From: Gemmiger formicilis
Lineage (GTDB): Bacteria > Bacillota > Clostridia > Oscillospirales > Ruminococcaceae
DNA length: 64,000 nt
Direction: 5' to 3'
NCBI RefSeq assembly: GCF_016900095.1
Contig: NZ_JACJJP010000009.1
Span: 1 to 64,000, forward strand
Shown here: one piece after another, positions 23,353 to 34,424 of the stretch
Layout: the number at the start of each line of letters is the position of its first letter
Numbering within the stretch: position 1 is the stretch's first letter
Notes under the pieces: model-generated
The model's database searches: none
Told to the model about the DNA's origin: nothing
Seen by the model: only the letters and a program-made list of their open reading frames with translations
Translations under genes and position numbers: made by a program

Positions 23353-24297
23353 ATGATTGCTTCGGAGGATGTCCGCCGCGTGACCTTTGAGCGCGCGATG
23401 CGCGGGTACCGCTGCGAGGATGTGGACGATTATCTCAAGCAGGTTGCGGACAGCATTGATGCGCTGAGCGCCGAAAACGAAGACCTGCAGAAAAAGCTGG
23501 TTGTTCTGGCACAGCGGATTGACCAGTACCGTGCGGAGGAAGATACCCTTCGCACGACCATGATCAACGCCCAGCGGCTGGGCGAAAATGTGATCCGTGA
23601 AGCCAAGCAGAAGGCGGCCGAAATCATCCGTGCGGCCAATATCAAGTCCGAAGACCGGGAACAGCATGCCCGTGACGAGGTGGAACTGGCCAAGCAGGAA
23701 CTGATCACCCTGAAAAAGGAAGCGGACAATTTCAAAAAGACCCTGATGGGAATGTACCGCGAGCATATCGAAGTGCTCAGCAAGATACCGGAATATCCGG
23801 GAGAGCTGGCCCAGGAGGCCGCCGCAGAGCAGAAAGCCCAGGCATCCGCTTCCTACCACCAGGAGCCGGAAGAACCCGAACCCGAGCCTGCGCCGGTCCA
23901 GCCTGAACCGGCCCCGGCCTCGGAACCTCAGCCGGTTCAGCAGGAGGAGCCCGTTTACCAGGAACCTGCCTATGATCAGCCGGAATATTATGCCCCCACC
24001 GCCGCAGACCCGTCTCAGGAAGGCAAAATCGATACGGTGGAATTTGCCATTGCTCCCAAACCGGAGGAGCCGGACCCGGAATATTATCCGCCCGAACCTG
24101 AGCCGCAGCCCGCGGACGAACTTCCCGATGCATCGGGACTGTATGCCGATGTGACCCCGGAGCCGCCCAAGAAGACGACCCGCAGCCGCAGTACCACCAA
24201 AAAAACCACCACCCGCAAGACGAAAACGGCCAAGCCTAAGGAAGAAAGTCTGCCGTCCGCCTTTGATTCGTTCCAGGGTGTGGATTATAACGACTAA
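23353..24297 (+). CDS. divIVA: DivIVA-domain cell division protein
   Basis: DivIVA marks curved membrane at poles and septa and recruits partners. The N-terminal lipid-binding domain reads VRRVTFERAMRGYRCEDVDDYL. Coiled coil runs to about residue 145. A long low-complexity Pro/Glu/Gln region follows (about 155-270), then a very basic Thr/Lys/Arg stretch (KKTTRSRSTTKKTTTRKTK) and a short conserved-looking end (FDSFQGVDYND). At 314 residues it is longer than B. subtilis DivIVA because of this tail. It sits between ylmH and ileS as usual. Confidence 0.9.
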   Translation: MIASEDVRRVTFERAMRGYRCEDVDDYLKQVADSIDALSAENEDLQKKLVVLAQRIDQYRAEEDTLRTTMINAQRLGENVIREAKQKAAEIIRAANIKSEDREQHARDEVELAKQELITLKKEADNFKKTLMGMYREHIEVLSKIPEYPGELAQEAAAEQKAQASASYHQEPEEPEPEPAPVQPEPAPASEPQPVQQEEPVYQEPAYDQPEYYAPTAADPSQEGKIDTVEFAIAPKPEEPDPEYYPPEPEPQPADELPDASGLYADVTPEPPKKTTRSRSTTKKTTTRKTKTAKPKEESLPSAFDSFQGVDYND

Positions 24298-24370
24298 CCC
24301 CGCAGTTTTGGCGGTGAGTTTTGCCGCCGTGCCGCGGTGATTATATCAATTATAGAGGGAGTTGGAGACC

Positions 24371-27148
24371 TTGGCGCAAAATTACAACGATACCATCCAC
24401 AAGATGGCTACCCCGTTTGAGATGCGGGCCGGCCTGCCGAAAAAGGAACCCAAAATGCTGGAAGACTGGGAGAAAAACCATGTCTATGAGCAGATGATCA
24501 AGAACAATGAGGGCTGCCCGGATTTTATCCTGCATGACGGCCCCCCGTATGCCAACGGCAGCATTCATATGGGCACTGCCCTGAACAAGATCATCAAGGA
24601 TATCATTATCCGTTACAAGAACATGGCCGGTTTCCGTGCGCCTTACATTCCCGGCTATGATACCCATGGTCTGCCCATTGAGTTGAAAGCTCTGGGTTCT
24701 CTGGGGGATAAGAAGGCCGGTATTTCCAAACTGGAACTGCGCCATATCTGCCGTGAATTCGCCACCGAACACATCGACGTGATGAACAGCCAGTTCAAGC
24801 GCCTGGGCGTACAGGGCGATTTCGATAACCCTTATCTGACCCTGCGTCCGGAGTTTGAAGCCCGCCAGGTGGAAATCTTCGGCAAGATGGCCCAGAAAGG
24901 CTACATTTACAAGGGTAAGCGTGTTGTGTACTGGTGCCCGGAAGACCAGACCGCTCTGGCGGAAGCTGAGATCGAGTACGGCGAGGACGAATGCGATTCT
25001 CTGTACGTTCGTTTCAAGCTCACCGGTGATCCCAACGGCGTGCTGGCCAAGGCCGGTGTGCCGCTGGACAAGGCCTGGATTGTGATCTGGACCACCACCA
25101 CCTGGACCCTGCCTGCCAACGTGGCTACCTGCCTGCATCCCGATTTCGACTATACCTTTGTCAAGATCGGCGATGATTACCACATCATGGCTGCCGAGCG
25201 TGTGGAAGCGACCATGAAGGCCTGCGGCATTGAGGATTACACCGTTCTGGATGTGCGTATTCCCGGCCGCGACCTGGAAATGATGGAGTACAAGCATCCC
25301 TTCCTGGACCGCACCGGTCTGGTGATTCTGGGCAACCACGTCACGCTGGACAGCGGTACCGGCTGCGTTCATACCGCTCCCGGCCACGGCGCCGAGGACT
25401 TTGATGCCTGCGTGGGCCATTACCCCCAGCTGCCCATTGTGATGCCGGTGGACGCTGCCGGCTGCCTGACCGAAGAGGCTGGCAAGGAATTTGCCGGCCT
25501 GAAGGTCTGGACCGCCAACAAGGTCATCCTGGAACACATCCGGGAAAGCGGGCATCTGATGGGCGTGGAGCACATTGTGCACCAGTATCCCCATTGCTGG
25601 CGCTGCCACCATCCCATTATCTACCGTGCCACCGAGCAGTGGTTCTGCTCCATCGACGCCTTCAAGGAAGACGTGTACAAGGCCGTCGACAATGTCAAGT
25701 GGCAGCCGGCCTGGGGCCATGACCGTATGACCGGTATGGTCCGTGATCGCAGCGACTGGTGCATCTCCCGTCAGCGCGTCTGGGGCGTGCCGATCCCCGC
25801 TTTCTACTGCAAGAAGTGCGGCAAGTATCACATCACCGAAACTTCCATCAAGGCCGTGTCCGATCTGTTCCGCAAGGAAGGTAGCGACGCCTGGTACAAG
25901 TATGACGCCAACGACATCATGCCGAAGGGCGAAACCTGTGAATGCGGTGCTTCCGACTGGGAAAAGGACAACGACATCATGGATGTCTGGTTCGATTCCG
26001 GCTCCACCTGGAGCGCTGTCTGCCGCGAGCGTCCGGAGCTGCGCTGGCCCGTTGATCTGTATATGGAAGGTGCCGACCAGTTCCGCGGCTGGTTCCAATC
26101 CAGCCTGCTGACCAGCGTGGCTACCGAAGGCATTGCTCCCTACAAGGGCGTTCTGTGCCATGGCTGGGTTGTGGATGCCCAGGGCAAGCAGATGCACAAG
26201 TCTGCCGGCAACGGCATGGAGCCGTCCGAGATCATCCGCGACTACGGCGCTGATATCATCCGTCTGTGGGTCGCTTCCAGCGACTACACCGTGGATGTGC
26301 GTGCCGGCAAGGAGATTTTCAAGCAGCTGTCCGAGGCCTACCGCAAGATGCGCAACACCGCCCGATTCATGCTGGGCAACCTGGGCGATTTCAATCCCGC
26401 CAAGGATATGGTGGCCGATGACCAGCTGTTCGAGATCGATCGCTGGGCTCTGGAGGCCGTGGCGGAACTGACCCGCACCATGCGCGCCGCCTATGATGAG
26501 TATGATTTCTCCCGCGCCTATCATGCCATCTACAATTTCTGCGTCATCGACATGTCCAACTTCTATATGGACGTGATCAAGGATCGTCTGTACTGTGCAG
26601 ACGATCGTGCGCGCCGCTGCGCACAGACCGCTCTGTACCGCATTCTGGTGGACTTCACCAAGCTGTTGGCTCCCATCCTGTGCTTCACCAGCCAGGAAAT
26701 CTGGAGCTACATCCCGAAGCTGCCGGACATGAAGGACTATGTTGTGTTCGAGCGTATGCCTGAGCCGAAGCCCGCTGCCGACGAAGCGTTTACTGCCAAG
26801 TGGGAGCGCATCATGGCGGTCCGCGACGATGTCAAGAAGGTTCTGGAGCAGGCCCGTGCCGATAAGGTCATCGGTTCTTCTTTGGAAGCGGCTCTGACTT
26901 TGTATTGCAACGACGATCTGTACGATTTCCTCAATGCCATTCCCATGGACGAGCTGGCCGATCTGATGATCGTTTCTCAGGTCAAGCTGGAAAAGGGCGA
27001 AGGCGGTGCCAAGGGCACCGTGGAAGGCCTTGGCGTCAGCGCCGCCCATGCCACCGGCAACAAGTGCCTGCGTTGCTGGAAGTTTGACGATGCCGTGAAC
27101 GAAGAGGGCCTGTGCCCGCGCTGCGCTGCTGTTCTGAACCGCGGCTGA
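24371..27148 (+). CDS. ileS: isoleucine-tRNA ligase
   Basis: IleRS charges tRNA-Ile. The 925-residue protein has the class I signature around PYANGSIHMG (59-68), the CP1 editing domain with TTTWTLPANVA, and KMSKS in the form KQMHKS (606-611). The C-terminal zinc site has Cys899, Cys902, Cys915 and Cys918. TTG 24371 is chosen because GAGGGAG sits 9 bases upstream; TTG 24362 lies too close to it. Only 73 bases separate divIVA from this start, too few for a T-box leader, so ileS is probably transcribed from the sepF promoters. Confidence 0.96.
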   Translation: MAQNYNDTIHKMATPFEMRAGLPKKEPKMLEDWEKNHVYEQMIKNNEGCPDFILHDGPPYANGSIHMGTALNKIIKDIIIRYKNMAGFRAPYIPGYDTHGLPIELKALGSLGDKKAGISKLELRHICREFATEHIDVMNSQFKRLGVQGDFDNPYLTLRPEFEARQVEIFGKMAQKGYIYKGKRVVYWCPEDQTALAEAEIEYGEDECDSLYVRFKLTGDPNGVLAKAGVPLDKAWIVIWTTTTWTLPANVATCLHPDFDYTFVKIGDDYHIMAAERVEATMKACGIEDYTVLDVRIPGRDLEMMEYKHPFLDRTGLVILGNHVTLDSGTGCVHTAPGHGAEDFDACVGHYPQLPIVMPVDAAGCLTEEAGKEFAGLKVWTANKVILEHIRESGHLMGVEHIVHQYPHCWRCHHPIIYRATEQWFCSIDAFKEDVYKAVDNVKWQPAWGHDRMTGMVRDRSDWCISRQRVWGVPIPAFYCKKCGKYHITETSIKAVSDLFRKEGSDAWYKYDANDIMPKGETCECGASDWEKDNDIMDVWFDSGSTWSAVCRERPELRWPVDLYMEGADQFRGWFQSSLLTSVATEGIAPYKGVLCHGWVVDAQGKQMHKSAGNGMEPSEIIRDYGADIIRLWVASSDYTVDVRAGKEIFKQLSEAYRKMRNTARFMLGNLGDFNPAKDMVADDQLFEIDRWALEAVAELTRTMRAAYDEYDFSRAYHAIYNFCVIDMSNFYMDVIKDRLYCADDRARRCAQTALYRILVDFTKLLAPILCFTSQEIWSYIPKLPDMKDYVVFERMPEPKPAADEAFTAKWERIMAVRDDVKKVLEQARADKVIGSSLEAALTLYCNDDLYDFLNAIPMDELADLMIVSQVKLEKGEGGAKGTVEGLGVSAAHATGNKCLRCWKFDDAVNEEGLCPRCAAVLNRG

Positions 27149-27190
27149 GCGTTTCCGTAACGGCCATCCAGGCAAAAAAGAAGCCCTGTG

Positions 27191-27228
27191 GGCGGTGCTT
27201 TACATCTGATGGAAAGCACCGCCTTTTG
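27191..27228 (+). terminator. terminator after ileS
   Basis: GGCGGTGCTTT (27191-27201) pairs perfectly with AAAGCACCGCC (27213-27223), followed by TTTTG. It ends the division/ileS transcription unit 43 bases after the stop. Confidence 0.92.
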
Positions 27229-27271
27229 TGGCTTATCAGGAATTTGGATTCCGCGAAAGGTAGTTTTTCCT

Positions 27272-27784
27272 ATGCTGTATGGCGTATGTTTTCTGATCGG
27301 CGGGCTTGCTCTGGCCGCACTGGATCAGCTCATCAAGATATGGGCAACCACCTACCTGATGCCCATTGGCAGCGCCCCGTTGGTTCCTGGCTTTGTGGAA
27401 CTGCGGTATGTGCTGAATGACGGCATGGCCTTTTCCATGCTCAGCGGCCGCCGCTGGCTTCTGATTGCGGTGACCGGTGCGGTGTTGCTTGTGGTGGCCC
27501 TGGTGCTGCTTTTCCGTAAGATGCCCCGCCTGGAACGGATTGTTTGGATGCTGATCCTGGGAGGCGGTCTTGGCAATCTGATTGATCGCGTCAGAACCGG
27601 CGTGGTGGTGGATTACCTGAATTTTCAGTTTATGGAATTTCCGGTTTTCAATTTTGCGGATATCTGTGTGTGTACCGGCGTGGGACTTTTGATCCTTTCG
27701 CTGGTTCTGGATCTTGTGCATGAACGCCGCAACGCCTCGGAAAAGGCGCCCGGCAAGGGTGATACCACCGATGCAGACGCTTGA
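27272..27784 (+). CDS. lspA: lipoprotein signal peptidase (signal peptidase II)
   Basis: LspA cleaves prolipoprotein signal peptides in the membrane. The 170-residue product has four predicted helices and the family motifs NDGMAFS (49-55), GNLIDR (101-106), VVDY with Asp114 and FNFAD with Asp130; the two aspartates are the expected catalytic pair. The ATG at 27272 removes an N-terminal extension that would begin within the terminator stem. It overlaps rluD by 14 bases. Substrates in this window include the ABC binding lipoprotein at 31565. Confidence 0.94.
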   Translation: MLYGVCFLIGGLALAALDQLIKIWATTYLMPIGSAPLVPGFVELRYVLNDGMAFSMLSGRRWLLIAVTGAVLLVVALVLLFRKMPRLERIVWMLILGGGLGNLIDRVRTGVVVDYLNFQFMEFPVFNFADICVCTGVGLLILSLVLDLVHERRNASEKAPGKGDTTDADA

Positions 27785-28697
27785 ATTTACCGCCACTCCG
27801 CAGGATGCCGGTCAGCGAATGGACCGCTGGCTGTCTGACTGCTGCTCGGAGCTTTCCCGCAGCGCTTTGCAAGCCTTGATGGAACAGGGAATGGTCCTGC
27901 GGCAAGGCGGACCCGTAAACAAGAAAGAAAAGGTTGCCGCAGGGGATACCGTACAGATTACGCTGCCGGATCCACAGCCCATTGAGGCAATCCCGCAGCC
28001 CATCCCCTTGGACATTGTGTATGAGGACGAACATCTGCTGGTAGTTAACAAGCCGAAAGGTATGGTGGTCCATCCCGCCCCGGGCAACCCGGATGGCACT
28101 CTGGTCAACGCACTGTTGTATCATTGCGCCGGCGGTCTTTCCGGAATCGGCGGCGCCATCCGCCCGGGTATCGTCCATCGCATTGACAAGGACACCAGCG
28201 GCCTTTTGGTTGTGGCAAAGGACGACGCCACCCATCAGGGATTGAGTGAGCAGATGGCGGTCCACGATATTCACCGTGTGTACCATGCAGTGGTTTACGG
28301 CAATCTGAAGGAAGACTGCGGCACGGTGGATGCTCCCATCGGCCGCGATCCCAAGGACCGCAAGAAAATGACGGTCACTCTTACTAACTCCAAACCGGCA
28401 CGCACCCATTGGCGCGTATTGGAACGGTTCGGCAACTTCACCTACATTGCTTGCCAGCTGGAAACCGGCCGCACCCACCAAATCCGTGTGCATATGGCAT
28501 CCATCGGTCATCCCTTGGCCGGCGACTCCGTGTATGGGCCGCGGAATGTCATCCGTTTTCTGAACGGGCAATGCCTGCATGCCAAAGAATTGGGCTTTGT
28601 ACATCCCATTACCGGGGAGGCCCTTCGGTTTGACAGCGAACTTCCGCCCTACTTCCAAGACTACCTTACGCGTCTGAGAAAGGAACATCGCAGATGA
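27771..28697 (+). CDS. rluD: RluA/RluD-family 23S rRNA pseudouridine synthase
   Basis: The 308-residue enzyme has an S4 domain (about 14-65) and the catalytic domain with HRIDKDTSGLL (136-146), Asp139 being the nucleophile. ETGRTHQIRVHMASIGHPLAGD follows near 235-256. The family converts uridines in 23S rRNA or tRNA; the precise target is not readable, so the rluD symbol denotes the family. It overlaps lspA upstream and the HAD gene downstream (ATGA), the classical lspA-rluD arrangement. Confidence 0.92.
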   Translation: MQTLEFTATPQDAGQRMDRWLSDCCSELSRSALQALMEQGMVLRQGGPVNKKEKVAAGDTVQITLPDPQPIEAIPQPIPLDIVYEDEHLLVVNKPKGMVVHPAPGNPDGTLVNALLYHCAGGLSGIGGAIRPGIVHRIDKDTSGLLVVAKDDATHQGLSEQMAVHDIHRVYHAVVYGNLKEDCGTVDAPIGRDPKDRKKMTVTLTNSKPARTHWRVLERFGNFTYIACQLETGRTHQIRVHMASIGHPLAGDSVYGPRNVIRFLNGQCLHAKELGFVHPITGEALRFDSELPPYFQDYLTRLRKEHRR

Positions 28698-29518
28698 AAC
28701 GGAACCTGCATGATTATCTGGTTTTTTGCGATATGGACAATACACTTCTGACGGCCAAAGAGGGCATTCCGGAGTGCAATCGTACCGTGATCCGTCTGTT
28801 TATCCAGATGGGCGGACGCTTTACGGTTGCATCCGGCCGGCCGCCCGAATCCATCCGCGCCGCATTGGGCGATATCCATCTTTCGCTTCCGGCCATCGCC
28901 TGCAACGGTGCGCTGCTGTACGATTTCAATGCCAATCGGGTTCTTCGCCATGCAACCCTGGAACGGGCGCAGGCCACCACAGCCATTTTGGATATCGCAC
29001 AGAAATTCCCCCAGATCGGTGTGGAGGTTATGGCCGGAGCAGGGGAGATGTATGTGATCCGGGCCAATACATACACCCATGCCCACCAGGTGGATGAAAA
29101 GCTGTCCGGCGTGGCTTGCCCGGTGGACAGCGTTCCCGACGGCTGGGTCAAGGTTGTGTTTGCCGCAGACCCGGAAACCATCCGCAAAGTGGGCCAATAT
29201 GCCAAAACCCGGTATTACGGCCGCGAAAACTATTTCTTGGCCACCAACAGCATCTACCTTGAAATTATGCCGGCAGGAATCGGCAAAGCTTCCGGCCTGC
29301 GGGATATGTGTACCTTGTTGGGAGAACCGATTCAGAATACTTTGGTGATCGGCGATTATTACAATGACCTGGAAATGATGCAGCAGGCCGGATATTCGGT
29401 GGCGGTTGCCAATGCACCGGCGGAGGTAAAAGCCGCAGCCAACGAAGTAACCACCTGTACCTGCGTGGAAGGCGCTGTGGGCGAATTCCTGTACAAGCTG
29501 ATCGAACAGTCCACCTGA
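28694..29518 (+). CDS. Cof-type HAD-IIB family phosphatase
   Basis: The 274-residue protein shows HAD motif I FCDMDNTLL (Asp13, Asp15), motif II TVASGRP and the closing motif IGDYYNDLEMMQQAGYSVAVANA with the C2 cap layout of the Cof subfamily. Such enzymes dephosphorylate sugar phosphates or phosphorylated cofactors; specificity cannot be assigned. It is coupled to rluD by a 4-base ATGA overlap. Confidence 0.88.
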   Translation: MKRNLHDYLVFCDMDNTLLTAKEGIPECNRTVIRLFIQMGGRFTVASGRPPESIRAALGDIHLSLPAIACNGALLYDFNANRVLRHATLERAQATTAILDIAQKFPQIGVEVMAGAGEMYVIRANTYTHAHQVDEKLSGVACPVDSVPDGWVKVVFAADPETIRKVGQYAKTRYYGRENYFLATNSIYLEIMPAGIGKASGLRDMCTLLGEPIQNTLVIGDYYNDLEMMQQAGYSVAVANAPAEVKAAANEVTTCTCVEGAVGEFLYKLIEQST

Positions 29519-29540
29519 TTCCGGAGGGAGGGTGTTTGCC

Positions 29541-30011
29541 GTGCGTGTGAGTGATCTATTGAACCGGGACAGTGTGCTCCTGCATGCCGATATGGAAGAT
29601 GCCGCGGATGCCTTGGGTGTTCTTGTGGAATTGCAGGAATCCAACGGTGTCATTACCAACGGAACCGCCTACTACAACGCCATCTGTGAGCGGGAAGCCG
29701 CCGGCGGCAGCACTGCCATCGGGGACGGTATGGCTTTACCCCACGCCTGCACTACCGGCGTGGCAGCTCCTGGCGTTGCGGCGCTGACCCTGCGCCACGG
29801 CGTGGATTGGGGGGCGCCGGACAACCGTCCCGTGGACCTGATCTTCATGATCGCCGTTCCGCCGCAGGCACAGGCAGAGCATCTTTTGATCCTGGCTCGT
29901 CTGGTCAATCTTTTGTCCGACGCGAATCTGGTCAAGGAATTGCGTGCCAGCGTCTCCCGGGAAGATTTTATCATGCGCATGGCACGGGCAGAGGCCTCTC
30001 GCTTTGCCTGA
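29541..30011 (+). CDS. PTS EIIA type-2 (fructose/mannitol/nitrogen) domain protein
   Basis: This single-domain EIIA protein of 156 residues has the phosphoryl-accepting histidine in GDGMALPHACT (His68). There is no EIIB or EIIC gene nearby, so it may be a regulatory EIIA like PtsN or a free subunit of a distant permease. GTG 29541 is preferred to GTG 29532 because GAGGGAGG occupies 29524-29531. It closes the lspA-rluD-HAD unit. hprK later in the window shows that this organism regulates PTS phosphotransfer. Confidence 0.85.
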   Translation: MRVSDLLNRDSVLLHADMEDAADALGVLVELQESNGVITNGTAYYNAICEREAAGGSTAIGDGMALPHACTTGVAAPGVAALTLRHGVDWGAPDNRPVDLIFMIAVPPQAQAEHLLILARLVNLLSDANLVKELRASVSREDFIMRMARAEASRFA

Positions 30012-30033
30012 CAACCGGCGATGCCGGATCATA

Positions 30034-30090
30034 GGGGAATGAAGTTCTCCCCGGGGAAACCCAAACCGCTTTAGTGGCTGATGACTTCTG
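30034..30090 (+). promoter_or_regulatory. fluoride (crcB-type) riboswitch aptamer
   Basis: P1 is GGGG (30034-30037) with CCCC (30049-30052), enclosing AATGAAGTTCT. AAACCGC-TTTA-GTGG (30063-30077) forms the second hairpin, and CTGATGACTTC follows. GAAGTT (30041-30046) can pair with GACTTC (30083-30088), the defining pseudoknot. The order and the sequences (ATGAAGTTC, AAACCGC, GCTGATGAC) match the B. cereus and Thermotoga crcB RNAs as remembered. An extra GGG-GAAA-CCC hairpin (30053-30062) is inserted between P1 and the AAACCGC segment. The 3' end of the aptamer shares bases with the terminator, the usual switch design: fluoride binding should prevent termination. Confidence 0.88.
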
Positions 30091-30130
30091 TGATTTCTTT
30101 TGTCGCAGAAGTCATCGGCTTTTTTATTTT
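30080..30130 (+). terminator. riboswitch-controlled terminator
   Basis: GATGACTTCTG (30080-30090) pairs perfectly with CAGAAGTCATC (30106-30116), followed by GGCTTTTTTATTTT. The 5' arm contains the pseudoknot strand of the aptamer, so stem and aptamer compete. Only about 11 bases separate the T-run from the antiporter ribosome site, too little for another promoter. Confidence 0.92.
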
Positions 30131-30151
30131 CGTTTATTTAGGAGGAAAACC

Positions 30152-31366
30152 ATGCTTACATCACTGGCTTTCATTTTTCTGGTGGGTCTGTCGGCGGCAG
30201 CCCTATGCCGCATTCTCCATCTACCCCGCATTATTGGTATGTTGCTCACCGGCGTTTTGCTGGGACCTTATGTGCTGAACCTGTTGGATCCCATTATTTT
30301 GCAGGCTTCGTCCGATCTGCGCCAGATGGCTCTCATCATCATTCTGCTCAAGGCCGGACTGTCTCTCAACCTGTCCGACTTGAAAAAGGTAGGGCGTCCG
30401 GCAGTCATGATGTCCTGCGTTCCTGCCACTTGTGAACTCCTGGCTTTTGTACTGTTTGCCCCTACTTTGCTGGGCATCAACCGGATCGAAGCAGCCGTCA
30501 TGGGAGCTGTGCTGGCTGCGGTGTCGCCGGCCGTGGTGGTGCCCCGCATGGTGAATCTGATGGAACAGCGTTGGGGCACGGAAAAAGGCATTCCGCAGAT
30601 GATCATGGCGGGGGCCTCCTGCGATGATATTTATGTGATCGTGCTGTTTTCCACTTTTGTGGGCATGGCCCAGGGCGGCAGCGCCCACTGGCAGGACTTC
30701 GCCCAGATTCCCATATCCATCGTCCTGGGCGTGCTTCTTGGCGCGGTTGTCGGATGGGGGCTGAGCCTGTTTTTTGAAACCGCCTACGCCCGTCGCCAGT
30801 ATGTGCGCAACAGTATGAAAGTGATTATTGTGCTGGGGTTGTCCTTCCTGTTGGTAGCCGTGGAGAACTGGCTGAAGGGGATTGTCCCGCTGTCCGGCCT
30901 GATCGCTGTGGTGGCAATGGCCTGCACACTCAAATTAAAATCCACACCTTCCGTTTCCAGACGCTTGTCCGAAAAATTCGGCAAATTGTGGCTGGCTGCG
31001 GAAGTGATTCTCTTTGTGCTGGTGGGGGCGGCTGTGGACATCCGGTATACCCTGCAGGCGGGTCTTGCCGCTGTAGCCATGATTGCTCTGGCCCTCGTGT
31101 TTCGCTCCCTGGGCGTTTTTCTGTGCATGTTTGGAACCCGGTTGTCCGGCAAAGAACGACTGTTCTGCATGATTGCCTATCTGCCCAAAGCCACCGTGCA
31201 GGCAGCCATCGGCTCGGTTCCCTTGTCTTTGGGGTTGCCCTGCGGACAAATCGTATTGACGGTGGCCGTCGTTGCCATTCTGATCACAGCACCCCTGGGA
31301 GCGTTGGGAATGGATGCAACCTACCGGATTTTACTGACGCACGCCCCCGCCCAGGATACGGAATAA
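30152..31366 (+). CDS. cation:proton antiporter (CPA superfamily) under fluoride riboswitch control
   Basis: The 404-residue membrane protein has about 12 hydrophobic helices and the Na+/H+ exchanger core. GMLLTGVLLGPYVLN is near residues 29-43, and MGAVLAAVSPAVVVPRMV and an acidic GASCDDIYVIVLFS helix follow. GGAGGA at 30141-30146 sets the ATG. CPA-type antiporters are among the established gene classes behind fluoride riboswitches, where they are thought to help cells withstand fluoride. The ion actually moved is not shown by sequence. It has no partner gene and is followed by the ABC importer promoter. Confidence 0.88.
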   Translation: MLTSLAFIFLVGLSAAALCRILHLPRIIGMLLTGVLLGPYVLNLLDPIILQASSDLRQMALIIILLKAGLSLNLSDLKKVGRPAVMMSCVPATCELLAFVLFAPTLLGINRIEAAVMGAVLAAVSPAVVVPRMVNLMEQRWGTEKGIPQMIMAGASCDDIYVIVLFSTFVGMAQGGSAHWQDFAQIPISIVLGVLLGAVVGWGLSLFFETAYARRQYVRNSMKVIIVLGLSFLLVAVENWLKGIVPLSGLIAVVAMACTLKLKSTPSVSRRLSEKFGKLWLAAEVILFVLVGAAVDIRYTLQAGLAAVAMIALALVFRSLGVFLCMFGTRLSGKERLFCMIAYLPKATVQAAIGSVPLSLGLPCGQIVLTVAVVAILITAPLGALGMDATYRILLTHAPAQDTE

Positions 31367-31564: not shown

Positions 31565-32593
31565 ATGAAAAAGCGTATTGTTTCCCTCATTACGGCAGGG
31601 TGCATGGTGCTGGCTCTGGCCGGTTGTACTTCCGGCGGCACCCAGGAAAGTTCTTCGGCTGCGTCTGCATCCGGTACGACAGAATCCCAGAGCAGTGAAA
31701 CCGCGGCGGAAGGTGCCAAGTACACCATCGGTATCTGCCAGCTTGTCCAGCATGATGCCTTGGATGCCGCCACTCAGGGCTTCAAAGATGCCATTGTGGA
31801 GGCTCTCGGGGAAGATGCCGTCACCTTCGATGAGCAGAACGCCCAGAACGATACCAATACATGTGCTACCATCATCACAGGCTTTGTGGCCTCTGACGTG
31901 GACCTGATCCTGGCCAACGCCACGCCCGCCTTGCAGGCGGCCCAGGCCGGTACCGACACGATTCCCGTGTTGGGTACTTCTGTCACCGAGTACGGCGTAG
32001 CCTTGGGCATTGATGACTTTGACGGTCTGGTGGGAACCAACATTTCCGGCACCAGCGACCTTGCTCCTCTGGATGAGCAGGCGGCTATGATCCAGGAACT
32101 GTTCCCGGATGCAAAGACCGTAGGTCTGCTGTACTGCAGCGCCGAAGCCAACAGCCAGTATCAGGTGGATACCGTCAAGGCGGATCTGGAAGCCATGGGC
32201 TATACCTGCGAATACTACGCCTTCAGTGATTCCAATGACCTGTCCACTGTTTGCCAGAGTGCGGCCGATGCCAGCGATGTAATCTACGTGCCCACCGACA
32301 ACACCGCCGCCAACAACACCGAGTTGATCAACAATATCTGCTACGGCAAGGTTCCTGTTGTGGCCGGTGAAGAGGGCATCTGCGCCGGTTGCGGTGTGGC
32401 AACCCTGTCCATCAGCTACTATGACCTGGGCGTAGCCACCGGCAAGATGGCGGTCAAGATTCTGACCGGCGAGAGCAAAGTGGAAGAAATGCCCATTGAA
32501 TATGCGCCGCAGTTCACCAAGAAGTACAACCCGGCCAATGCCGAGGCTCTTGGCATCACGATTCCTGACGATTATGTCGCAATCGAGAAATAA
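31565..32593 (+). CDS. ABC transporter substrate-binding lipoprotein (TrpX-like, PF04392 type)
   Basis: The 342-residue precursor has a lipoprotein signal with lipobox LALAGC (Cys21), followed by a Ser/Thr/Glu-rich linker to about residue 55. The two-lobed binding domain follows (YTIGICQLVQHDALDAATQGF; GTSVTEYGVALGI; VIYVPTDNTAANN). This is the family annotated as putative tryptophan/tyrosine or branched-chain-like ligand binders. The ligand is not determinable here. AGGAGGAAG sits before the ATG. Permease and ATPase genes follow, separated by a terminator that should raise binding-protein output over the membrane parts. Confidence 0.9.
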   Translation: MKKRIVSLITAGCMVLALAGCTSGGTQESSSAASASGTTESQSSETAAEGAKYTIGICQLVQHDALDAATQGFKDAIVEALGEDAVTFDEQNAQNDTNTCATIITGFVASDVDLILANATPALQAAQAGTDTIPVLGTSVTEYGVALGIDDFDGLVGTNISGTSDLAPLDEQAAMIQELFPDAKTVGLLYCSAEANSQYQVDTVKADLEAMGYTCEYYAFSDSNDLSTVCQSAADASDVIYVPTDNTAANNTELINNICYGKVPVVAGEEGICAGCGVATLSISYYDLGVATGKMAVKILTGESKVEEMPIEYAPQFTKKYNPANAEALGITIPDDYVAIEK

Positions 32594-32620
32594 CGAATTC
32601 AGCGTTCTGCACTGAGAAGC

Positions 32621-32667
32621 GGCAGAAAGCCACGGAAGGGGAAACCTGTTTTCGTGGCTTTTTGCCG
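32621..32667 (+). terminator. intra-operon terminator after the binding-protein gene
   Basis: AAAGCCACG (32626-32634) pairs with CGTGGCTTT (32653-32661), extended by GGCA/TGCC, with a short T-run (TTTTT). No promoter is evident between it and the permease, so it probably acts as a partial terminator. Confidence 0.82.
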
Positions 32668-32710
32668 TGAATGCGGTTCATCAATTTTATTTGTAGAGAG
32701 GATTGTTTCT

Positions 32711-33640
32711 GTGGAAATCTCAACACTGTTCAATGCCATGCCCGGCGCCTTTTCGCAAGGGCTGATCTGGGCCATCATGGCTATTGGCGTATACATCACC
32801 TTCCGGATTCTGGATGTTGCCGACCTGACGGTCGACGGTACTCTCGGTCTGGGCGGCGCTGTCTGCATTATGTGTATGCTGGCAGGCATGAATGTCTGGG
32901 CCGCCATGGCACTGGCCTTTGCGGCCGGGATCCTTGCCGGGCTGGTCACCGGTCTGTTCCATACCCTGATGGGAATTCCCGCCATCCTGGCCGGTATTCT
33001 CACCCAGCTTTCTCTGTATACCGTCAACCTGAAGGTCATGGGAAAGGCCAACCAGGCCATCAATGTGGATAAGTATGACCTTCTGATCTCTCTTCGCTTT
33101 GTCAAAGGTGTGCCGATCTGGCAGAATACCATCGTGATTGTTGCCCTGATTGTGGTACTGCTCATTGCCATCCTGTACTGGTTCTTCGGCACGGAACTGG
33201 GTTGTTCCGTGCGTGCCACCGGCTGCAACGGCAATATGGCCCGGGCCCAGGGCATCAACACCAGCTTCACCACTGTTTTGGGCCTGATGCTCTCCAACGG
33301 GCTTGTGGCATTTTCCGGTGCGCTGCTCTGCCAATACCAGGGATTTGCCGACGTTTCCATGGGACGTGGCGCCATCGTTATCGGTCTGGCAGCCGTCGTG
33401 ATCGGGGAAACGCTGTTCAGCAAGATTTTCCGCAACTTTGCCCTCAAACTGCTCAGCGTGGCCATCGGCAGCATTGTCTATTATCTGGTGATGCAGGTAT
33501 GCATCTGGTTCCGTATCGACACCGACCTGCTCAAAATGCTCAGCGCCATCGTGGTGGCGGTTTTCCTGGCTGTGCCTTACTGGAAGGCCAAGTATTTCAC
33601 CCGCGTGAACGTTCACAAAGGAGGCGCCGACCGTGCTTGA
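32711..33640 (+). CDS. ABC transporter permease (TrpY-like, BPD_transp_2 family)
   Basis: The 309-residue protein has about eight to nine hydrophobic helices, with AMAIGVYITFRILDVADLTVDGT near the N-terminus and RATGCNGNMARAQGIN in the coupling region, typical of permeases paired with PF04392 binding proteins. It starts at GTG 32711 behind AGAGAGGA and overlaps the ATPase gene by 8 bases. The pairing predicts a high-affinity importer. Confidence 0.88.
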   Translation: MEISTLFNAMPGAFSQGLIWAIMAIGVYITFRILDVADLTVDGTLGLGGAVCIMCMLAGMNVWAAMALAFAAGILAGLVTGLFHTLMGIPAILAGILTQLSLYTVNLKVMGKANQAINVDKYDLLISLRFVKGVPIWQNTIVIVALIVVLLIAILYWFFGTELGCSVRATGCNGNMARAQGINTSFTTVLGLMLSNGLVAFSGALLCQYQGFADVSMGRGAIVIGLAAVVIGETLFSKIFRNFALKLLSVAIGSIVYYLVMQVCIWFRIDTDLLKMLSAIVVAVFLAVPYWKAKYFTRVNVHKGGADRA

Positions 33641-34424
33641 GCTGAAAAATATCTATAAGACTTTCAATGTCGGTACCGTCAACGAAAAGGTGGCACTGAA
33701 CGGACTGTCTCTCACCCTGGAAGACGGCGATTTTGTGACAGTAATCGGGGGCAACGGCGCCGGTAAGTCCACCATGCTAAATGCGGTGGCCGGTGTGTGG
33801 CCCATCGATATGGGCAAAATTCTGATCGACGGCAAGGACATTACCCGCCTGCCCGAACACAAACGCGCCAAGTATATCGGACGCGTTTTTCAGGATCCTA
33901 TGATGGGCACCGCCGGAACCATGGAGATTGAGGAGAACCTTGCTCTAGCGGCTCGGCGCGGCGACGCCCGTACCCTCAAGGCCGGTATCACCAAGCAGGA
34001 GAGGGAAATGTATCGGGAGCGACTGAAGATTCTGGGACTTGGTCTGGAAGACCGCATGACCAGCAAGGTGGGGCTTCTGTCCGGCGGTCAGCGGCAGGCC
34101 ATCACCTTGCTTATGGCAACTCTGAAAAATCCCCGCCTGCTCCTGCTGGATGAACATACCGCTGCTCTGGACCCCAAAACGGCGGCCAAGGTGTTGGAAC
34201 TGTCGGAAAAAATCGTACAGCAGAATCACCTGACCACCCTGATGATCACGCACAATATGCGGGACGCCATCAAATACGGCAACCGCCTGATCATGATGCA
34301 TGAAGGCCGCATCATCTATGATGTGCGCGGAGAAGAGAAAAAGGCTTTGCAGGTGTCTGACCTGTTGGCTCGCTTCGAGCAGCTCAGCGGGGACGGCGCC
34401 AATGATCGTATGTTGCTTTCCTGA
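33633..34424 (+). CDS. ABC transporter ATP-binding protein (TrpZ-like)
   Basis: This 263-residue ATPase has Walker A GGNGAGKS (39-46), signature LLSGGQRQA, Walker B LLLLDEHTAALDP (His after the catalytic Glu, common in this subfamily) and the H-loop ITHNMRDA. GTG start at 33633 follows AAAGGAGG. It completes the binding protein-permease-ATPase set and is closed by a strong terminator. Confidence 0.92.
   Translation: MLELKNIYKTFNVGTVNEKVALNGLSLTLEDGDFVTVIGGNGAGKSTMLNAVAGVWPIDMGKILIDGKDITRLPEHKRAKYIGRVFQDPMMGTAGTMEIEENLALAARRGDARTLKAGITKQEREMYRERLKILGLGLEDRMTSKVGLLSGGQRQAITLLMATLKNPRLLLLDEHTAALDPKTAAKVLELSEKIVQQNHLTTLMITHNMRDAIKYGNRLIMMHEGRIIYDVRGEEKKALQVSDLLARFEQLSGDGANDRMLLS

Follow-up and report, generated by a model that had tools for sequence, protein, structure and literature searches.

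An NHA2-like antiporter behind a fluoride riboswitch as a probable stand-in for CrcB/Fluc in Gemmiger formicilis

On the basis of RNA anatomy, protein homology and the distribution of fluoride exporters among related genomes, we consider it likely that Gemmiger formicilis meets fluoride with a riboswitch-controlled exchanger: fluoride would release transcription termination and induce an NHA2-like cation:proton antiporter that replaces the Fluc/CrcB channel, probably by way of cation and pH balance. The locus lies in a 64,000-nucleotide stretch of contig NZ_JACJJP010000009.1 (the window, to which all coordinates refer). Its riboswitch is an ordinary, standard fluoride-sensing RNA, and what makes the locus interesting is the antiporter, a likely substitute for Fluc. 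New here is a riboswitch-linked antiporter that is closest to animal NHA2 (SLC9B2) and keeps the ion-site residues, and the replacement of CrcB by this exchanger would be the best supported of the new proposals. The features on which the argument draws are as follows.

29532-30011 (+), gene for a stand-alone PTS EIIA protein (PF00359, by profile), given for context only; P1 begins 22 bases after its stop codon
30026-30097 (+), fluoride riboswitch aptamer, by RF01734 covariance-model match
30034-30052 (+), P1 hairpin, GGGGA (30034-30038) with UCCCC (30048-30052) and the 5' pseudoknot strand in its loop, by sequence
30041-30046 (+), 5' pseudoknot strand GAAGUU, forming six pairs with 30083-30088, by sequence and relatives
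30053-30062 (+), extra hairpin P2, GGG-GAAA-CCC, directly abutting P1, by sequence and covariation in relatives
30063-30078 (+), conserved AAACCGC joint (30063-30069) and short P3, by model match, relatives and sequence
30076-30125 (+), intrinsic terminator (30076-30120; 19 pairs, 7-base loop) and the T-run behind it, by independent terminator scan
30083-30088 (+), 3' pseudoknot strand GACUUC, common to aptamer and terminator, by sequence and relatives
30140-30145 (+), ribosome-binding site AGGAGG, by sequence
30152-31366 (+), NHA2/SLC9B-like cation:proton antiporter (PF00999), 404 amino acids, by profile, sequence and fold

The covariance model bears out the fluoride riboswitch of the original prediction. 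Positions 1-64 of RF01734 match the window at 30026-30097 (+) with 41.8 bits, over the gathering score of 34 (E-value 5.8e-10 with 1,101 bases searched, 3.4e-8 with the entire window searched); this is the only match above any Rfam cut-off in a scan of the whole window, and the single RF01734 match of the host genome is the one 5' of the antiporter. P1, pseudoknot, P3 and conserved joint are all present, as RF01734 requires, and the P1 stem, the pairing of 30041-30046 with 30083-30088 and the AAACCGC motif that had been proposed are found in place. P3 pairs G68, C69 and U70 (30068-30070) with G76, G77 and C78 (30076-30078).

Further support comes from an alignment of 36 relatives, the family matches with the shortest, window-like spacer between P1 and the joint. 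Across the whole structure 93.6% of cells are paired, against 90.0 ± 0.6 in shuffles, and the covariation score is 0.137 against 0.073 ± 0.009; none of 500 shuffles reaches the observed pairing or covariation, and every slid version of the structure scores lower. The pseudoknot is paired in 93.1% of cells, with changes on both sides at one of its six pairs, and the four core pairs of P1 are invariant in 36/36 relatives and thus speak neither for nor against P1. The leader (30024-30127) has a folding energy of -45.1 kcal/mol, where shuffles give -26.4 ± 3.2 (z -5.9; 0/200 as good), a margin that is mostly the terminator's, since the aptamer stretch alone (30024-30090) folds no better than shuffles (z -0.60); for the P1-P2 stretch as a single sequence the folding energy is likewise not significant (z -0.95). 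A chance match is excluded by score, terminator and relatives, and by sequence and structure the element is a true fluoride riboswitch with a predicted response to fluoride.

The predicted terminator, with the pseudoknot strand in its 5' arm, was recovered at 30076-30120 by an independent scan, which found one site against 0.4 expected; alone it folds at -29.3 kcal/mol. Overlap with a terminator is common among fluoride riboswitches, though not universal. Because its 5' arm takes up the 3' strand of P3 and the pseudoknot strand 30083-30088, aptamer and terminator are mutually exclusive, which is the known ON mechanism as described in PMC11077080 and PMC13273304. Functional riboswitches with this reach into P3 are described in PMC13273304, and a loose pattern for it fits 100/105 host-family leaders. 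From these overlaps we infer an ON-type transcriptional fluoride riboswitch ahead of the antiporter gene: without fluoride, strand 30076-30094 would pair with 30102-30120 and end transcription before the gene; with fluoride, the aptamer would be locked, the terminator could not spread and transcription would enter the gene at 30152. Fluoride is held together with Mg2+ in the pseudoknotted core of such RNAs.

How transcription reaches the switch is less uniform across the host family. At least 10/12 bases of a promoter-like site stand just upstream in 75/104 host-family leaders, 20 of them perfect, a count taken without shuffled control; that control was made in five genomes. The best site at the window copy agrees in 8/12 bases, a level reached by 135/500 shuffles, and the three genus relatives that share its upstream flank (G407, G410 and G413) also have 8/12; a fourth, G409, has a perfect promoter (0/500 shuffles as good). 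A separate promoter scan of 29850-30250 found no promoter-like site, nor does any of 10/12 lie within 23501-30060. With no recognisable promoter at the window copy, its expression is uncertain; since P1 follows the EIIA stop codon by 22 bases, the switch may gate read-through from upstream, and the window copy may act as an attenuator within an operon. Ion transporters are among the targets that EIIA proteins can control, and the EIIA flank is the same in those three genus relatives. With the window EIIA as query, however, the window's own copy is the one place of 107 in the host family that has an upstream match, and EIIA-antiporter pairing as a general module is rejected (1/107). Downstream, at 31565-34421, lies an ABC transporter set of a TrpX-like binding protein (the TrpX model scoring below its cut-off), a permease and an ATPase.

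The antiporter expected right behind the switch is there: the protein scores 147.5 bits with PF00999 (gathering score 26.2), and its start at 30152 follows the AGGAGG at 30140-30145. The host genome has two PF00999 genes. No NCBIfam name applies above cut-off; the CPA2 subfamily model TIGR00932 gives 50.8, below its curated cut-off of 238.3. By sequence NHA2/SLC9B2 is the nearest protein of solved structure (148.3 bits, about 35% identity), and fold agrees: a structure model of the antiporter (pLDDT 84.1, pTM 0.83) superposes on bison NHA2 with Z 48.1 and rmsd 2.1 over 382 aligned residues, and on NapA with Z 37.6. Glu214, Asp277, Asp278, Arg431 and Lys459 of bison NHA2, ion-site residues with roles described in PMC8850199, align to E95, D158, D159, R318 and K346; E95, D158, R318, K346 and T348 are kept in 32/32 aligned relatives, and D159 in 31/32. 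According to the same source NHA2 is electroneutral, and an arginine takes the place of the lysine of electrogenic exchangers, so that the NHA2-like arginine suggests electroneutral exchange for the window antiporter too. By these residues its ion site appears to be that of a cation exchanger, which lends no support to movement of fluoride.

Linkage between switch and antiporter is widespread in the host family. RF01734 was found in 104/396 host-family genomes, and 107 of the 112 matches listed were taken, the five weakest being left out. Among four families tested, the nearest downstream gene is an antiporter in 94, CLC in 5, CrcB in 2, a permease in 1 and none in 5. Matches over at least 300 residues back 86/94 antiporter calls; of the eight shorter ones two are cut by contig ends and others look broken. 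Left out of the antiporter counts is L123 in genome G006, with a 27-residue match only; its riboswitch match scores 31.4 bits, below cut-off, the genome has CrcB, and the locus is possibly a decayed copy. The riboswitch matches L126 and L127, at 25.8 and 24.9 bits, are false. The antiporter gene starts less than 150 bases from the aptamer match in 90/95 host-family cases, the false call L123 included.

Seen from the protein side, the best 80 antiporter loci of the genome collection include 68 preceded, on the strand of the gene, by an RF01734 match above cut-off, at about 730 bases in one of them (L250), and 12 with none over cut-off upstream. Among these 12, L251 has only 33 bases of upstream sequence available, and L277 and L315 have weaker leaders by eye. 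The L261 leader keeps the terminator and that of L260 only its 3' arm, with no recognisable aptamer in either. L266, L294 and L309, from metagenome-assembled genomes labelled Treponemataceae or Treponema, have the antiporter with no riboswitch over cut-off, possibly through switchless transfer or mislabelled bins. Within the host genus (35 genomes drawn) the ortholog is patchy, occurring in 4/34 others, all four with a riboswitch leader. Two of the four orthologs are in two pieces (L035 and L050 in G410, L036 and L051 in G413), the riboswitch being kept, and host-family copies in G086, G101, G221 and G242 are also in pieces; split copies may be frameshifted or partly deleted, assembly error being an alternative. 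In one genome, G033, fluoride riboswitch matches stand at three places, before CrcB, a permease and an uncalled gene (L108, L093), and the antiporter ortholog is absent.

Na+/H+ antiporters are established targets of fluoride riboswitches; the review PMC11139923 places Na+/H+ antiporters as the next commonest riboswitch-linked class after exporters. A literature search that covered few subscription journals found nothing linking NHA2/SLC9B-type bacterial antiporters, or CrcB absence, to fluoride riboswitches.

The case for replacement rests on where CrcB is missing. The host genome, 99.45% complete, has no match to PF02537 (CrcB/Fluc). Among the 396 host-family genomes drawn, the antiporter ortholog (E <1e-20, a cut-off set at a gap in the match list) occurs in 97; an RF01734 match accompanies it in 89 of these and is missing from 8. 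CrcB is found in 0/97 ortholog genomes, whereas 44/299 genomes without the ortholog have it (Fisher 2.8e-6). This absence may partly follow ancestry; 14 host-family genera hold both states, ortholog and CrcB, in different species, and the chance of zero overlap within genera is 0.003-0.013, assuming 8-10 genomes per genus. In the host phylum outside the host family, CrcB occurs in 0/24 antiporter-riboswitch genomes (all 24 antiporter calls matching over at least 260 residues) against 17/56 controls (p 0.0019), the controls being a riboswitch-negative set, hand-thinned from a random 190 of 241, rather than a random one. The exchanger may thus stand in for Fluc, as it occurs where Fluc is missing in the genomes sampled. 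The original suggestion that tolerance comes from antiport in place of CrcB/Fluc is thereby better supported than the sequence alone allowed, ortholog and CrcB never having been found in one genome, but nothing here points to fluoride transport by the protein.

As for its role in tolerance and direction of transport, we infer that the exchanger most likely corrects the proton and sodium load caused by entering HF. On entry HF would dissociate, so that the cell gains protons as well as fluoride; the exchanger could then expel protons at the cost of a sodium gradient, or reduce the pH difference by which fluoride is trapped.

Among the other readings, the one that fares best makes the antiporter an accessory gene for pH or cation control, fluoride itself being handled by unseen or constitutive exporters such as GREGA-type CLC proteins; we hold this to be possible, yet the less probable account. 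The real exporter of fluoride could be a CLC protein; the host has one CLC gene, and the 77 good host-family genomes with riboswitch and antiporter, none of which has CrcB, include 39 with CLC. The host's gene has no riboswitch and is therefore not a CLC-F in the sense of a CLC under a fluoride riboswitch, the sole riboswitch match preceding the antiporter. Of 31 CLC proteins inspected, one (L337) was left out for a wrong frame, and the others, sorted by motifs that we take to mark types, are GREGA without GSGIP in 24 (the host's included), GREGP in 4, GREGT in 1 and GREGV in 1. The review PMC11139923, moreover, assigns riboswitch-linked antiporters to pH homeostasis. Against a purely accessory role stand the other 38/77 genomes, which have neither exporter family, and the lack of CrcB in genomes with the ortholog, which would be unexpected for a mere accessory.

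Another rival looks to the RNA, and would have P2 be a special adaptation that tunes the riboswitch for antiporter genes. The original prediction had described an inserted GNRA hairpin foreign to the well-known examples, with a possible influence on folding or sensitivity; the hairpin is real and covaries, but it is not unusual. In the 36 relatives two of its three pairs change on both sides, one of those two in a single sequence, and the outer pair (columns 28-37) is CG in 15, GC in 4, UA in 4, AU in 3 and an unpaired UU in 10. Usable spacers between P1 and the joint are available for 105 of the 107 fetched host-family matches, and a stem of at least three pairs is possible in 104/105 (92 by Watson-Crick pairs only). 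A possible three-pair stem is by itself weak support, as shuffled spacers average 3.16 ± 0.07 pairs (200 rounds, 105 spacers); the argument for P2 comes from the longer mean longest stem of the real spacers, 4.34, together with covariation. Stem and loop lengths vary widely across the host family. GNRA loops close 29/36 hairpins of the shortest-spacer class, but longer P2 hairpins carry varied loops, and the GNRA loop as a special docking element was dropped.

A figure legend in PMC3023696 describes a hairpin 'present in 31% of crcB RNAs', and the window P2, presumably at the same position, is very probably this published optional hairpin; with hairpins there family-wide as well, a novel insertion is rejected. 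Among the 150 matches listed for the host phylum, 38 are at least 71 bases long, some through other causes such as a long P3. P2 was seen by eye in 31/108 inspected phylum places (108 of 109 used, L150 left out), which is not a frequency, as the sample is rich in long matches (39 long ones taken). Family-wide stems, longer than shuffled, and covariation thus make P2 a real, ordinary optional hairpin of the lineage; it would serve as a structural side arm abutting P1, not as a new sensor part. The same by-eye calls, in this sample that over-represents long matches, give P2 in 16/24 antiporter-linked riboswitches against 5/40 CrcB-linked ones (p 1.6e-5), yet P2 tracks lineage: antiporter switches both with and without it occur in families f62, f87 and f130, in family f25 it is present on CLC genes and absent from the antiporter switch, and CrcB- and CLC-linked switches of the host family carry it too. 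The association is therefore confounded by lineage and the tie to antiporter genes is rejected, tuning for them being unlikely.

Least probable of all is that the antiporter itself carries fluoride, as F- or HF coupled to H+ or a cation, and forms a third exporter type beside Fluc and CLC-F: the failure to find ortholog and CrcB in one genome, the 38/77 genomes with neither CrcB nor CLC and the short distance from aptamer to gene in 90/95 cases (L123 false) would fit it, but E95, D158/D159, R318 and K346 form a cation exchanger's site, and CrcB absence is equally expected if pH or cation control suffices.

Many gut Clostridia appear to lack the known fluoride channel and to face fluoride through a sensor and a cation:proton exchanger. 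The exchanger as a replacement for Fluc raises a testable question, whether proton/cation exchange is enough for fluoride tolerance or an unrecognised fluoride exporter hides among antiporters, and it gives access to bacterial relatives of human NHA2 whose physiological cue is clear. A bolder version, which we put forward only tentatively, is that the NHA2/SLC9B-like clade provides stand-alone, riboswitch-dedicated fluoride resistance across many families of the phylum, replacing Fluc/CrcB and often CLC, as a third solution beside Fluc and CLC-F that would act by fluoride transport or by undoing the effects of HF.

Compared with known systems, the window element shares with the RF01734 fluoride riboswitch its core, pseudoknot, AAACCGC joint, terminator over the pseudoknot strand and ON logic; it differs in the hairpin between P1 and joint, an insertion in the Rfam model, and in a terminator that runs through P3, as in several functional variants in PMC13273304. 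With the crcB RNAs that carry the optional hairpin, as given in the PMC3023696 legend, it shares the same consensus plus a hairpin, presumably in the same position, their share being similar to the 38/150 long matches listed for the phylum. In the Clostridioides difficile case of PMC11477304, where a fluoride riboswitch precedes CLC and NhaP-type antiporter genes, the antiporter likewise belongs to the switch's transcription unit, but there the CLC gene is named first, whereas in the window the antiporter adjoins the switch. The CrcB/Fluc channel has the same presumed role in fluoride tolerance and belongs to a different protein family. Among solved structures NHA2/SLC9B2 comes closest in both sequence and fold, sharing the ion-site DD pair, arginine, glutamate, lysine and threonine; the window protein differs in being bacterial, in lacking the N-terminal part before NHA2 residue 113 and in standing under a fluoride switch.
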